From NCBI GenBank assembly GCA_001563915.1, contig LKMP01000002.1, forward strand, positions 1 through 64,000: a DNA stretch of 64,000 nucleotides, written 5' to 3'. The notes below the pieces were generated by a model. That model saw nothing but the letters and a program-made list of their open reading frames with translations, was not told where the DNA came from and did no database searches. Positions 37,645 through 48,286 of the stretch are shown one piece after another. The stretch's first letter is position 1; every line of letters starts with the position of its first letter. The stretch comes from Nanohaloarchaea archaeon B1-Br10_U2g21 (GTDB taxonomy: Archaea; Nanohalarchaeota; Nanosalinia; Nanosalinales; Nanosalinaceae). The position numbers and the translations under genes were made by a program.

Positions 37645-39093
37645 TTACTGCCATTTCAGTTTGGGATAACTATCTTCCACAGTCCTCCATACGTTTTCAA
37701 AGTCAAATCCCTCCATATTTTCTGCGGCAGCATCTCCTTTCATCTCCTCAGTAGTTAAGCCTTTAGCCGTTGGACTATCTGATCTCGTGCCATCACAATC
37801 CGGGCATAAATCCTCGTTCCAGTAGGAATATTCTGCTCCGCCTCTTCCAATCAGTGCATTTCTTTGCTCTCCCTCTGCACCATCATTAGGAGGGTTTACC
37901 GTAAATGTCCTGTTGACACTACTACCTCTTCCCTGTATACCTCCTGTTTGAACACTTGCACCATCTATTTCTCCCGTATAATAGGAGTCTACTATTGTTG
38001 CTGCCCTCCCCGCTATACCTCCTGATCGACCCCCATTAACCGTAGCTTCAGAGTAAGACTGATTTACGGTGCCGTGACGACCTACAATTCCGGCTGTTCT
38101 TCGGCCTGGACCTTCAGAGTACCCGCTTGTATGCGATTTCAGGATATGCGTTCCTGAACCTGCTCCTAACAATACGCCTACTTTTCTCGACCCTCCAACT
38201 ACTTCTCCATTTGCATAGGTCTTATAGATTAAACTATTTCTTACATCTCCTCCTAGCGCTCCAGTTCGATGATCTCCTATTATTCCAGTATTATTTAGCT
38301 TTAGATATTCTACAGTCATATCGTCGCCGTAACCTACTAACCCCACCCTATCTGTTTCTGGACGCTCTATCGCTAAACCTTCAATAACATTGCTGTTACC
38401 ATTTATAGACGCTCTGAATGGTTCTTCAGGATCTCCTAAAGGATGAAATCCACTTTCCCACGCTTCTGTCTGCTGCGCATCTATTTTTCGTTCTAAACTA
38501 TACTCTCCTTCTTTATCTTCACTCATACACTGCAATTCTGCAAGATTATTTATCTGATATACCTCCTCGTCTTCAACCCACATCTCTTCAATGATTTCAC
38601 CGCAGGCATTTCTTCTATACGGATCGTCCCATAGCTCTCCGTTTTCAGGAATTTCTAAATCCCCAGTTATAGTACCTGATTCAACTAATCCTTCTAAATT
38701 TCCTTGTGTATATTGAACTTCTAGCTCAAATTCTCCCTCTGAGTCAGAGGAAATGTTTGTTAGCCCTAAAACTTCTTCATTTCCTACCCCAACATCAGTG
38801 AAACTATTTAAGACCATTTTCTTTGAATCAGGGTTTGATATTGTTATTTTTTCAACCTCAAGATTTTCTGAACCTCCATTTCTAACCACTAACTCTAAAC
38901 TTTCATCGCCAACATCACTATCAGTTATTATTACATCTCCATCATCAAAACCAGATATTTGAACGCTAGGTCCAAAAATATCGCCTTGAACCACTGAAAA
39001 GATTGCGCCGCCGACCACAGCAACAACTAATAACATCCAGCCATAAGTCATCAAATACTCAATCGCAGACTGACCTGAGAACGTTCCTCTCAT
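37645..39093 (-). CDS. Pilin-anchored GLUG-repeat adhesin-like protein
   Basis: 482 residues. The N terminus RGTFSG followed by QSAIEYLMTYGW is a class III (type IV pilin-like) signal, cleaved before Gln8, whose hydrophobic helix (to about 36) assembles into filaments. An acidic beta domain follows, then from about 165 a repeated GLUG-type region (TGALGGDVRNSLIYKTYANG, SGGIAGRAATIVDSYYTGEI), a Cys pair CPDC, and the family's usual end FDFENVWRTVEDSYPKLKW. This is a filament-borne adhesin candidate for contact with other cells. Confidence 0.8.
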   Translation of the reverse strand: MRGTFSGQSAIEYLMTYGWMLLVVAVVGGAIFSVVQGDIFGPSVQISGFDDGDVIITDSDVGDESLELVVRNGGSENLEVEKITISNPDSKKMVLNSFTDVGVGNEEVLGLTNISSDSEGEFELEVQYTQGNLEGLVESGTITGDLEIPENGELWDDPYRRNACGEIIEEMWVEDEEVYQINNLAELQCMSEDKEGEYSLERKIDAQQTEAWESGFHPLGDPEEPFRASINGNSNVIEGLAIERPETDRVGLVGYGDDMTVEYLKLNNTGIIGDHRTGALGGDVRNSLIYKTYANGEVVGGSRKVGVLLGAGSGTHILKSHTSGYSEGPGRRTAGIVGRHGTVNQSYSEATVNGGRSGGIAGRAATIVDSYYTGEIDGASVQTGGIQGRGSSVNRTFTVNPPNDGAEGEQRNALIGRGGAEYSYWNEDLCPDCDGTRSDSPTAKGLTTEEMKGDAAAENMEGFDFENVWRTVEDSYPKLKWQ

Positions 39094-39147: not shown

Positions 39148-39568
39148 TTGAGGCAAATACAAATAACAGTCGCGTTCAGACATGAAGCACCATACGATAT
39201 ACTTGCCGAGCAGAATCAGAAGGTCGAGAGCAACGGGACTTCATGGACTGACAGAGAAGAAAGAACCTGGAATAACGTAGTCTTCCCAAAAATTTCTCAG
39301 AGTAAGCTAATTATAGAATGGGAAAAAACTGAAGAGAACGGAAAAATCAATACTATGGTCTCTTCGCAAACCTAACTGGAAAATCAGAACTCTCCACAGC
39401 CTAAGACGCACAAGAATCACAGATCTAGTAGCAGACACAGGCCTAAGTGTGAAAGAAGTCAGACAGAGATCAGGACATCCAATTATAGAAACGATAGACA
39501 GCTACAAAGAGAACAGTGTAGAAAGTCCGAAAAACTCTGGAAAGATACTGTATGGAAGAAAATGTTGA
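39148..39568 (+). pseudogene. Frameshifted tyrosine recombinase (integrase) remnant
   Basis: In one frame up to TGA 39566-39568 the DNA reads TLHSLRRTRITDLVADTGLS, then KEVRQRSGHPIIETIDSYKE. This is the C-terminal catalytic part of tyrosine recombinases: the HxxR box, the later G-H, and the terminal Tyr. Upstream, in another frame (39148-39375), FPKISQSKLIIEWEK and NTMVSSQT resemble the preceding part of the same domain. A frameshift near 39362-39376 joins them. The N-terminal core-binding domain is absent. It marks a decayed mobile element. Confidence 0.7.
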
Positions 39569-39625: not shown

Positions 39626-40450
39626 TCAACTCCAATGTTTTTGAATGTATTCAGTAGCTTCACCTATGCTTAGTGGTTTTGAAGAACTTCCTTGTCTAAC
39701 ATAAAACTCCTCTTTATCTCCAAAGTAAACAGGATCAGAGCTTGATTCTACTGATACAACACAAATAGTCTTGCCTTCGACTTCCTCAAATTCAACCTCT
39801 GTATAAATGGAACCGAACGTATCACCCATTTTATCTGAGATTACCTGGTTAAGCTGCAGCTCGAAATCATCGCGGCCTTTCTTCATTTGTTTAAGATCTC
39901 TTTCAATACCCACAATCTCTTTGTTCTCATCTTTTACCCCAATTATCAGAGTTCCGCCCTCAGAGTTGGCAAAAGCACATATTTCTTTAGCTGCTTTTTC
40001 TTTTAAGGCCTTATTAGGCTCTTTCTGATAAACATCCCATAAAAACGTCTCCTTGAATTCTATTTTGAAATTCTCTCCTCTCTGAATCAAATCTCTAACG
40101 TCATAACTCTCTTGTTCGGCTTCAGCATCCAAATTTTCAATGAAACTATTGATAGCTTCTGATAGCATTTCCCTCCGTTTCTGAAGGAACTTTTCGTAGT
40201 TCTTCGTTTTCCATAATTCAGTATTCTTAGGGACAAATTGTTGCTCGAAAGCTTTAGGATGGTCTTCCATTATCTCTGGCATATACTCTGAAGGCGGAGT
40301 ATCGTTAATATTCCAATTCCCTTCCTTAGTTAGAAATGCTCTATTTGCTATTTCATTGACTCTACTCTGATCCGAGCTGTTATTTGTGTTATACCCGTTT
40401 TTATAGAGAAGAGATTTAGGGAAAATGTGGTGAGAGTGTTTATTGCTCTG
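39626..40450 (-). pseudogene. 5'-truncated DUF262/DUF1524 (GmrSD-type) plus AlbA_2 gene
   Basis: The open frame runs without a start from 40450. It begins SNKHSHHIFPKSLLYKNGY, the HNH-like block of DUF1524, then NEIANRAFLTKEGNWNIND and WKTKNYEKFLQKRREM, the usual end of that domain, and continues into an AlbA_2/Schlafen-type DNA-binding domain (FKIEFKETFLW, EICAFANSEGGTLIIGVKD). The DUF262 N-terminal part is missing. Only a shorter product from ATG 40282 could be made. The break falls exactly within the last codons of the small gene at 40440-40709. Confidence 0.75.
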
Positions 40451-40709
40451 TCATATCTGTGTGGCTTGAGACAAAGAGGTCTGTTCCCCTCATAAACTTC
40501 TTCAGTTCATCATAATCGTCTGTAGCTCCTATAGCCATTCCGTATCTCTCATCTTTGTTTTCTACTTCGTATCTGTCTGTTTCTTCTAGGACTTCGATTG
40601 CTCTGTCGAATGATTCTCTGTCTGCTTCATCCCCTTGCCATTCTTCTGGTTTATACTCAAGTTCTACAGCATGTCTTCCGCTGTAAACTGATTCAACTTC
40701 TTCTGTCAT
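40440..40709 (-). CDS. Acidic hypothetical protein joined to a truncated gene
   Basis: 89 residues, acidic and soluble (FDRAIEVLEETDRYEVENKD, then MGAT-like turn and a C-terminal SSHTDMTEQ). No recognised family. Its last four codons overlap the start of the truncated DUF1524/AlbA reading frame. Its promoter region holds two inverted repeats and a TATA box, and a diverged copy of the tRNA-Thr 3' flank lies about 80 bases upstream. Confidence 0.6.
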   Translation of the reverse strand: MTEEVESVYSGRHAVELEYKPEEWQGDEADRESFDRAIEVLEETDRYEVENKDERYGMAIGATDDYDELKKFMRGTDLFVSSHTDMTEQ

Positions 40710-40714
40710 AGTAT

Positions 40715-40747
40715 GTTACTGGTAAGTAACAAATATTTATATTTGTT
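40715..40747 (-). promoter_or_regulatory. Operator-like inverted repeats over a TATA box
   Basis: GTTACT/AGTAAC (40715-40720 and 40725-40730) and AACAAATA/TATTTGTT (40728-40735 and 40740-40747) are two perfect inverted repeats. The second contains the minus-strand TATAAATA, about 30 bases before the ATG at 40709. A dimeric repressor bound here would block transcription. Confidence 0.5.
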
Positions 40748-40790
40748 TTGGTCTTTCGATTTTTCTCATCAAGCGCTTTGATGTTCAGAA

Positions 40791-40862
40791 GCTCATATGA
40801 GCAACACTATCAAAAAATCCTGTTATTAGGACTTGATAAGATAAAATATTGGGTATAGCCCC
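40791..40862. repeat. Copy A of a 72-base direct repeat ending in the tRNA-Thr 3' end
   Basis: Ungapped alignment with 41763-41834 gives 54 of 72 identical bases (75% by hand count). The right end TAGCCCC matches the last bases of the tRNA-Thr gene. Sequence beyond 40862 differs. It fits a far att site left by integration at the tRNA 3' end. Confidence 0.6.
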
Positions 40863-40946
40863 TTTTTGAGCTTTTGACAATCGTTGCCAAAGCCCATATT
40901 TATGGTGAGACCGAAGGGTTGTTAATGTTAGTTTTAGTAGACAATC

Positions 40947-41261
40947 TTAAGTTTTCTCCTCAAACTGACTTAATTGGTCTTTTATCAGTTCAATTAAGTC
41001 CTCAGTATTCCTGTATTCTCGGATATTGTCAGATACTGCTTTCAAAGAGCCTGAAGGAGTAGAACCTGTTTCATATACGCACAATATTGGAATGTTATAC
41101 GAATCAGCCCAGCCAAGTTCAATACCTTGTCCTGTTGAAGCTTCAGAAACTTCTGCCAAAACAAGATCACACTGATTCTGCAAAAACTCTTTGGAGTTAA
41201 ATGGCTTATCAGAATCTTCCTTATTAGAAAAATAATAAGAGAAAATATGTGTTTCTTTAGC
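40947..41261 (-). pseudogene. 5'-truncated nucleoside 2-deoxyribosyltransferase-like gene
   Basis: The frame is open from 41261 to the stop at 40947 and reads FNSKEFLQNQCDLVLAEVSE, then ASTGQGIELGWADSYNIPIL and CVYETGSTPSG. This is the C-terminal half of the deoxyribosyltransferase/DNPH1 family (pattern D-L-x-V-A-E-V-S ... G-x-G-x-E-L-G-x-A). The N-terminal substrate-binding half is missing. The frame begins inside the stop region of the gene at 41257-41697, so the loss coincides with that gene's arrival. Confidence 0.65.
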
Positions 41262-41697
41262 CTAAAGTCCTTCTGATCTCTGCAACAGTTTCAACTGCCT
41301 CTACTGTATCTTCCAGTAGGTCAACTGTTTCTTTCGGCGATTCCTGAGGCTCAAAGCCAGCCATTAATAATCCGCTTGAATACTCGTTACTGTAAACATC
41401 GCAACTCACTTCTTCACTTTTAAGATGATTGATTGCCGAATAGACTGCTTCGGGGTTAAGATCATCAAGCTCTGTATTAGAACCAGAGGGTTCTCCTTCA
41501 GGAATGTTGACCGATAGCTCTTTTAGATTTTCTGCATCATCGTAACTCAAGGATGCGTTTGTAGAATCTTTCTCGTACTGGAAATATAATCCTTCACTAC
41601 TATGTTCGTCGAAGCTATATCCTCTTTCTTCTAACATAGCTTCGGCAGCATCTCCTTGTGGATCGGAAGGACGACAGCTCTTATCTTTTGTCATCAT
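41257..41697 (-). CDS. Acidic hypothetical protein at the tRNA-Thr locus
   Basis: 146 residues, very acidic, predicted mostly soluble; blocks GDAAEAMLEERGYSFDEHSS and SPKETVDLLEDTVEAVETVA. I recognise no family. It is the first gene left of tRNA-Thr, its end fuses directly to the truncated deoxyribosyltransferase frame, and its upstream region carries repeat copy B. Confidence 0.6.
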   Translation of the reverse strand: MMTKDKSCRPSDPQGDAAEAMLEERGYSFDEHSSEGLYFQYEKDSTNASLSYDDAENLKELSVNIPEGEPSGSNTELDDLNPEAVYSAINHLKSEEVSCDVYSNEYSSGLLMAGFEPQESPKETVDLLEDTVEAVETVAEIRRTLG

Positions 41698-41762
41698 ACA
41701 GTAACAATAGTTTGTAAGGTTTAAAAAAGTATTGCCTTATTCTTGCAAATACCGAGTTCAAA

Positions 41763-41834
41763 TCTCATAAGAGCAATATTAGTTCAATAACCTGTTATCA
41801 AAACCTGATAAACTAAAATATTTGGTTTAGCCCC
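41763..41834. repeat. Copy B of the 72-base direct repeat, at the tRNA-Thr 3' end
   Basis: Includes the last six tRNA bases and 66 bases of 3' flank. It is 75% identical without gaps to 40791-40862, 972 bases away. Confidence 0.6.
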
Positions 41835-41916
41835 GAGTGGGATTTGAACCCACGACCTGCTCCTATCTTGCTCATTGTTACAAGGGAGCTGCTCTGGCCA
41901 GCTGAGCTATCGAGGC
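41829..41916 (-). tRNA. tRNA-Thr (anticodon TGT) with a 14-base intron
   Basis: Acceptor GCCTCGA pairs with TCGGGGC; discriminator U. Anticodon stem GCTCC/GGAGC. The loop reads CTTGTA, then 14 extra bases at 41878-41865, then A. Removing them leaves a 74-base tRNA with anticodon TGT. The intron is at the canonical 37/38 site. Confidence 0.9.
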
Positions 41917-41974
41917 CTCTGTGTTAGAGAGATAAGGAAATTTTTATATGCAGCATAGTAGTTTGCACCGTTTT

Positions 41975-48151: not shown

Positions 48152-48286
48152 TGGGCTCGACGGGATTTGAACCCGCGACTACCAGGTATCCCCTCATGAA
48201 ACGCCGAGTTTTTCTAGATCTTTATCCTCCTAGAAATTAGAGGTCTGTTAAGAGCCTGGTGCTCTGCCGGGCTGAGCTACGAGCCC
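48152..48286 (-). tRNA. tRNA-Lys (anticodon CTT) with a 61-base intron
   Basis: Acceptor GGGCTCG pairs with CGAGCCC; discriminator A. Anticodon stem CCAGG/CCTGG. The loop CTCTTA is interrupted after position 37 by 48248-48188, and A38 follows. The mature form is 74 bases. The intron is long for this genome and itself contains stem-forming stretches (CTAGGAGG and AGATCTAG). Confidence 0.9.

Follow-up and report, generated by a model that had tools for sequence, protein, structure and literature searches.

A probable decayed cassette array at the 3' end of a tRNA-Thr gene in a nanohaloarchaeon

The first 64,000 nucleotides of a contig of Nanohaloarchaea archaeon B1-Br10_U2g21 (the window; genome G000, 816 kb in 24 contigs, 92% complete) contain what is probably a decayed array of two small non-autonomous cassettes, placed one behind the other at the 3' end of a tRNA-Thr(TGT) gene and fused by deletions. 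The repeat that marks this array belongs to a family of small integrated elements, present in six genomes, for which it serves as the attachment site. The family is a new variant of tandem accretion at a tRNA site, integron-like in its working, and the closest known kind is CIME-type tandem accretion. Excerpts of earlier papers describe archaeal integrons, tandem integration and CIME accretion (PMC9668308, PMC6563490, PMC8371274, PMC5704250). The literature covered, which lay largely outside the subscription journals, yielded no description of tRNA-anchored cassette arrays in nanohaloarchaea.

Results

The target of the array is a tRNA-Thr(TGT) gene on the minus strand (41828-41917; Rfam tRNA, 57.6 bits at 41829-41916). 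ARAGORN gave its anticodon as 'gtaa', and we read the gene from its letters as tRNA-Thr(TGT) with an apparent ~14-nt intron. The block upstream of it is conserved in G004, G008, G011, G012 and G017. The last 7 nt of the tRNA, GGGGCTA (41828-41834), form the attachment core, and with them begins the left end of cassette 1 (41746-41834, minus strand, core plus flank ...GCTCTTATGAGATTTGAAC), which by alignment and pairwise identity shows 66% identity with left end A and 70% with G010_3. This cassette carries, on the same strand, a gene for a 146-aa protein (41257-41697) and the 3' remnant of a nucleoside-deoxyribosyltransferase-like gene (40947-41261), and it closes with a right end of the family that we call R1 (40850-40945, minus strand, core GGGGCTA at 40856-40862; 70 bits and E 2.5e-14 against the R1 model, to whose training set this copy belonged). 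The left end of cassette 2 (40774-40862, minus strand, core plus flank ...GCTCATATGAGCTTCTGAAC), located by the repeat match, alignment and pairwise identity, is followed by a gene for an 89-aa protein (40440-40709) and the 3' remnant of a DUF262/DUF1524(GmrSD-like)-SLFN_AlbA_2 gene (39626-40450), both again on the minus strand. No R1 right end follows this second cassette of the window. On the plus strand lies a C-terminal fragment of a tyrosine recombinase (39374-39565, HSLRRTR..SGHP; Pfam Phage_integrase E 0.035, PHROG integrase 9e-4), the sole integrase trace found in G000. Directly after the array remnant, 37645-39093 on the minus strand encodes a 482-aa protein whose N-terminus reads as pilin-like. 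Elsewhere in the window, Rfam places a tRNA gene at 48152-48286 (minus strand, 55.8 bits) that is missing from the ARAGORN list and whose length suggests an intron.

An earlier sequence-only reading had described the two small genes as acidic, each preceded by a copy of a tRNA-flank repeat and each joined to a gene lacking its 5' part. Both joins are where that reading had put them. The 146-aa gene ends at 41257 and a 104-aa open frame starts at 41261; the 89-aa gene ends at 40440 and a 274-aa open frame starts at 40450. Alignment bears out the description of the downstream genes as 3' remnants. Compared with its paralogs, the 104-aa frame lacks about the first 37 of ~120 residues: it aligns from the EDSD stretch of intact family paralogs of 116-133 aa, one of them at G000:C15, and Pfam Nuc_deoxyrib_tr matches it over profile positions 59-101 of 117 only. 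A complete nucleoside deoxyribosyltransferase domain with its N-terminal strand was thus not found in 40947-41261. The intact paralog in the same genome (G000:C15:18604) is only 55.7% identical to the remnant and is therefore not the parent copy.

The 274-aa frame contains an HHIFPKS stretch and an SLFN_AlbA_2 domain (Pfam 3.4e-25), and its AlbA part aligns with other proteins too. Its alignment to a 571-aa DUF262/DUF1524-like protein of G007 begins at residue 462 of that protein and covers the last ~110 residues, so that some 460 residues are missing from the remnant. PADLOC matched it to HEC-05 at profile positions 491-595 of 600 (E 2.3e-9). The names DUF262 and DUF1524 are our own reading of the remnant; Pfam did not call DUF1524 on it. 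Relatives, where the earlier reading had suggested looking for intact versions of both genes, supplied the G007 protein and the 116-133-aa paralogs, though not at the corresponding tRNA-Thr(TGT) genes of G008 and G011. There, a 545-aa gene starts ~115 nt after the tRNA in G008, with a different flank and no R1 site, and a recombinase lies directly downstream in G011, so neither genome shows the headless genes intact at this position.

As for the small genes themselves, their net acidity, (D+E-K-R)/length, is 0.191 and 0.164 against a median of 0.069 for the 78 ORFs of the window; they are acidic as described, and with ranks 7 and 10 of 78 they are no outliers. The 146-aa protein has a homolog inside a G010 cassette (G010:C1:831907-832332, E 2.1e-26, 45.9% identity over 146 aa), and the comparison indicates that it is complete. 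It matched nothing in Pfam or PHROG, and its predicted fold (mean pLDDT 39.4) was set aside. A search of 60 genomes for homologs of the 89-aa protein gave, apart from the protein itself, none below E 0.027, and Pfam, PHROG and PADLOC did not match it. Its gene looks intact, and as an orphan it leaves no homolog by which to judge its end. Viral contigs contained no match to either the 146-aa protein or the repeat pattern, and a viral origin was dropped.

The two repeat copies in the window (40789-40862 and 41761-41834) match at 76% over 74 nt (blastn E 2.7e-11), and one does precede each small gene. This 74-nt repeat comprises the last 7 nt of the tRNA and ~67 nt of its 3' flank, so the earlier description of a tRNA-flank repeat was right as far as it went; as a description of the whole site it fell short. 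The site at 40774-40945 is bipartite, with a right end of ~95 nt, a core GGGGCT(A/T) identical to the tRNA-Thr 3' end, and a left end of ~85 nt. The trail to the site family ran through the G010 homolog of the 146-aa protein, which has a copy of the flank 2.5 kb away. We built a covariance model of the right end (R1) from 10 aligned copies and searched 60 genomes: 19 of the window's own family (nanohaloarchaea), 9 from the rest of the order and 32 from elsewhere in the domain. Matches at E<1e-5 occurred in 6 of the 60 genomes (G000, G002, G008, G009, G010 and G016), all among the 19 of the family. None of the 9 other genomes of the order matched at this level, and among the 32 other archaeal genomes no match reached even E<=0.5.

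Within the fetched loci, which were scanned with less strict filters than the 60 genomes, the model found 12 places; 10 are the training copies, and those in G009 and G002 are independent finds, the latter a partial repeat at a contig end. G001, of the same genus as the window, had no R1 match, and no other strong copy was found in G000 itself, where the sequence-only reading had proposed to look for further cassettes. Weak R1 matches in G006, G017 and G025 (E 0.03-0.5) were left uncounted. The pattern match in G006 has no tRNA in its 3-kb locus, and three of six pattern matches (Sphingomonadaceae, Bryobacteraceae and Actinomycetota) were put down to chance on account of the lengths of their gaps.

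Around GGGGCT, every one of the 11 right ends has 6-12 nt in common with its tRNA. The left ends were assessed solely through alignment and pairwise identity. In G008, the left end at the tRNA flank and an internal copy are 89% identical over 79 nt, while between genomes the left ends are only 52-71% alike by pairwise identity (G016 left end excluded).

The right end can be folded into three helices. Across 12 sequences, 92.8% of the cells are paired and the changes are mostly one-sided. Double-sided changes occur in 2 of 14 pairs, a count equalled by 45 of 500 shuffles, and the covariation score is equalled by 1 of 500 shuffles. Support for the pairing is thus modest, and none of our conclusions depends on it. 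This foldability would fit a dispersed non-coding RNA or regulatory element that lies near tRNA-Thr by chance, with the headless genes as independent pseudogenes. Rfam searches on four sources returned nothing besides tRNA and 5S rRNA, however, and wherever the sequence reached far enough, in five genomes, each of the 11 repeats was found downstream of tRNA-Thr and on its strand. Since a cassette match between two genomes also ends exactly at the core (below), we regard a chance-placed RNA element as very improbable.

The better-preserved arrays belong to relatives of the window genome, which include NHA25 (G010), PL-Br10_U2g16 (G016) and B1-Br10_U2g1 (G008). The cassettes measure 0.8-2.2 kb, and the arrays start from tRNA-Thr(TGT) in G000 and G009 and from tRNA-Thr(GGT) in G008, G016 and G010, the G010 repeats lying behind 28.9 kb of other DNA. 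In G008, tRNA-Thr(GGT) is followed by a 375-aa gene, a site, a DUF2268 protease gene, a site, a 113-aa gene with an erythromycin esterase gene, and a site. G016 has tRNA-Thr(GGT), with an intron by our reading, then a phosphodiesterase/PglZ-like gene, a site, a 229-aa gene, a site, and a gene related to it that runs to the contig end; the related genes of these neighbouring cassettes are 77.7% identical in DNA. The G009 array consists of tRNA-Thr(TGT), an APH-like kinase gene and a site. That kinase gene (L107 3046-4050) has an apparent start further upstream in another frame and is possibly frameshifted. In G010, tRNA-Thr(GGT) is followed by a gene for a 461-aa tyrosine recombinase within the 28.9 kb, which hold no further R1, and then by a site, an erythromycin esterase gene, a site, a 211-aa gene, a site, the 146-aa homolog and a site. 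Inspection of the cassette ORFs and Pfam found no recombinase inside any cassette.

The esterase cassette is common to G010 and G008, which belong to two genera, at 89.6% DNA identity over 1424 bp, and in G010 the match runs as far as the final base of the core GGGGCT and no further. The esterase proteins are 88% identical between the two genomes, against 47% for the EamA gene that neighbours the tRNA in each. From these comparisons the cassettes appear to move or to have moved. The DUF2268 cargo of G008 has a homolog in G007 (L167 4732-5458, 82.9% over 731 bp) with neither cassette end, and such cargo thus occurs outside cassettes too.

The same two genomes display a fusion. In G008 the left end of the esterase cassette is gone, with the stretch upstream, and what remains is attached, at a join ~48 nt ahead of the esterase start, to the left end and 113-aa gene of another cassette; the G010 esterase cassette, which keeps its own left end, is the unfused counterpart. 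We take both joins in the window to be deletions of the same type, reaching further into the downstream gene. The headless genes are then probably older cargo of the cassettes, truncated on the 5' side by deletion of the attachment site between neighbouring cassettes. The sequence-only reading had pictured a repeated cassette event in which the repeat with a small gene replaced the 5' part of a resident gene. A repeated event at the tRNA-flank repeat is upheld, and the overwriting of resident genes is probably wrong, given the G008 fusion and its unfused form in G010. That two joins in one array each kept the small gene may point to selection for the small genes.

Could the junctions have been produced by the assembly? 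The G000 assembly is fragmented, in 24 contigs, which speaks for such an artefact. The longest exact match between the repeat regions is only 9 nt, which makes a chimera at the repeat unlikely, and tRNA-Thr, cassettes and R1 sites appear in the same layout in four other genomes. We therefore consider an assembly artefact the least probable of the explanations weighed here.

A stronger competitor is decay. Large integrative elements, proviruses or plasmids, could have entered tRNA-Thr one after another and shrunk to one or two genes between attachment sites (CIMEs by decay), in which case the cassettes would at no time have been mobile units. Decay is plain in the window, a recombinase-bearing island of 28.9 kb stands between the tRNA and the first repeat in G010, and CIME accretion is a known process according to excerpts of PMC5704250. 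Against this stand the esterase cassette, shared with its right end between two genera as a small unit, the 0.8-2.2 kb cassettes in four further genomes, and the related genes in the two neighbouring G016 cassettes. We consider decay from large elements unlikely, while giving it more weight than any other rival, and prefer the small cassettes.

The cassette ends offered a lead to a recombinase. A 14-nt arm motif derived from them, TRTGRGCTTTYGAA, has 17 matches in 7 of the 60 genomes searched, against 7 matches for the motif read backward as a control. All 12 matches in G008 (6), G010 (3) and G016 (3) fall within ends of cassettes or islands; the remaining 5 are spread over G006, G031, G054 (2) and G059, and the exact motif is absent from G000. 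In G010, one copy marks the tRNA-proximal end of the recombinase island, ~12 nt beyond the tRNA-Thr(GGT) 3' end; the R1 right end on the opposite side of the island holds another, and the two are in inverted orientation. The presence of the motif at both island ends would tie the 461-aa recombinase type to the cassette ends, and the family of this enzyme, beside tRNA-Thr(GGT) in G010, is the best candidate for the acting recombinase.

The island also contains an MCM-like helicase and restriction-like genes. Over its extent (L112 1-13827; L111, G010:C1:840001-863827) we noted two tyrosine recombinases, a large helicase, genes that read as RadC-like and HerA-like, a methylase-like protein of 1201 aa and a DUF262-like protein. 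It looks like a defence island and may be several elements. Related recombinases, 40% identical, are encoded at L039 6319-7605 (G011), immediately downstream of tRNA-Thr(TGT), and at L157 3210-4433 (G004), immediately downstream of a tRNA that we read as tRNA-Thr(CGT). The fetched stretches around these two contained no R1 right end. The integrase fragment of the window had no phmmer match to the G010, G011 or G004 enzymes (52 ORFs).

A PF00589 search of 20 genomes (G016 not among them) at E<=0.001 found no match in G000 and none in G008, so the arrays of these two genomes would depend on an enzyme from outside. Although G008 is 96% complete, this search brought up not even a XerA-like protein in it. 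A PF00589 match in G002 was dropped because it fell within the frame of a helicase-like ORF.

Discussion

The arrangement can probably be accounted for as follows. Each cassette consists of a left end (core plus ~80 nt), its cargo, and a right end of ~95 nt that ends in the core GGGGCT. After excision, a tyrosine recombinase acting in trans would join the core of the circular cassette to the identical core at the tRNA-Thr 3' end. Joining at the core would place the newest cassette next to the tRNA and leave the tRNA intact, and the array would grow by repeated insertion, much as integron cassettes are inserted. In the window, two later deletions would each have removed a stretch that comprised a right end, the left end behind it and the beginning of the gene that followed. 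Two cassettes would in each case have become one, in which an intact small gene stands immediately ahead of a gene that lacks its 5' part.

The likeness to integrons raises the possibility that the window is a true archaeal integron, with attC sites, IntI and a CALIN-like cluster. There is a cassette array behind a fixed site, the repeat is foldable and the arrays lack an integrase, and integrons have been reported in archaea in excerpts of PMC9668308. As described there, integrons likewise hold arrays of mostly single-gene cassettes at one insertion point, with resistance-like and unknown cargo, and include arrays that have no local integrase. The present cassettes differ from them in having two conserved ends in place of one attC, a tRNA gene as target, no IntI, and cargo in both orientations. 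The attC R box pair has the consensus RYYYAAC...GTTRRRY, and such a pair occurs in 0 of 22 strand reads of 11 repeats. The best recombinase, that of the G010 island, scores 31.1 bits with integrase_gron against a cut-off of 265 bits. On the R boxes and the recombinase scores we rejected the integron reading as very unlikely.

The cassettes resemble CIMEs more closely. According to excerpts of PMC5704250, CIMEs lack a recombinase, keep attL and attR, are lined up one behind another where a target gene (for example, one for a tRNA) has its 3' end, and could be moved by an enzyme acting in trans or in cis. Like a CIME or accreted element, the nanohaloarchaeal cassettes sit at a tRNA 3' end with the core repeated at the far side (11 right ends), and they contain no recombinase gene. 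They differ in being archaeal, only 0.8-2.2 kb long, mostly of one gene and with as many as three or four in succession; one of them is common to two genera, and they are not seen as relics of one larger element. The cryptic integrated elements of Thaumarchaeota are tyrosine-recombinase elements at tRNA genes, and in archaea a single integration site is known to be used repeatedly, as excerpts of PMC6563490 report; those elements span 2.6-98 kb and bear an integrase, unlike the cassettes described here. The Tycheposons, which are larger and belong to another domain of life, are tyrosine-recombinase elements that target tRNA genes; their cargo is varied, and they have reduced relatives.

A broader proposal is tentative, and we place it slightly below an even chance. 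Nanohaloarchaea may have an integron-like system of their own, unrelated to IntI/attC, in which an island-borne, tRNA-Thr-specific tyrosine recombinase captures free two-ended single-gene cassettes in trans, builds arrays at several tRNA-Thr genes, spreads both resistance-like and defence-like genes between genera, and makes composites when attachment sites between neighbours are deleted.

The window itself is of modest value, a decayed example that leads to better preserved arrays. Its fused cassettes, with that of G008, hint at the way in which small genes and fragments of genes are brought together at sites of this kind, and the two ends, core and arm motif together provide a handle by which such arrays can be searched for in other genomes, as well as substrates open to direct testing. 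If the cassettes are mobile, archaea with reduced genomes would have a second route for trading single genes besides integrons, with a tRNA gene as the landing site.
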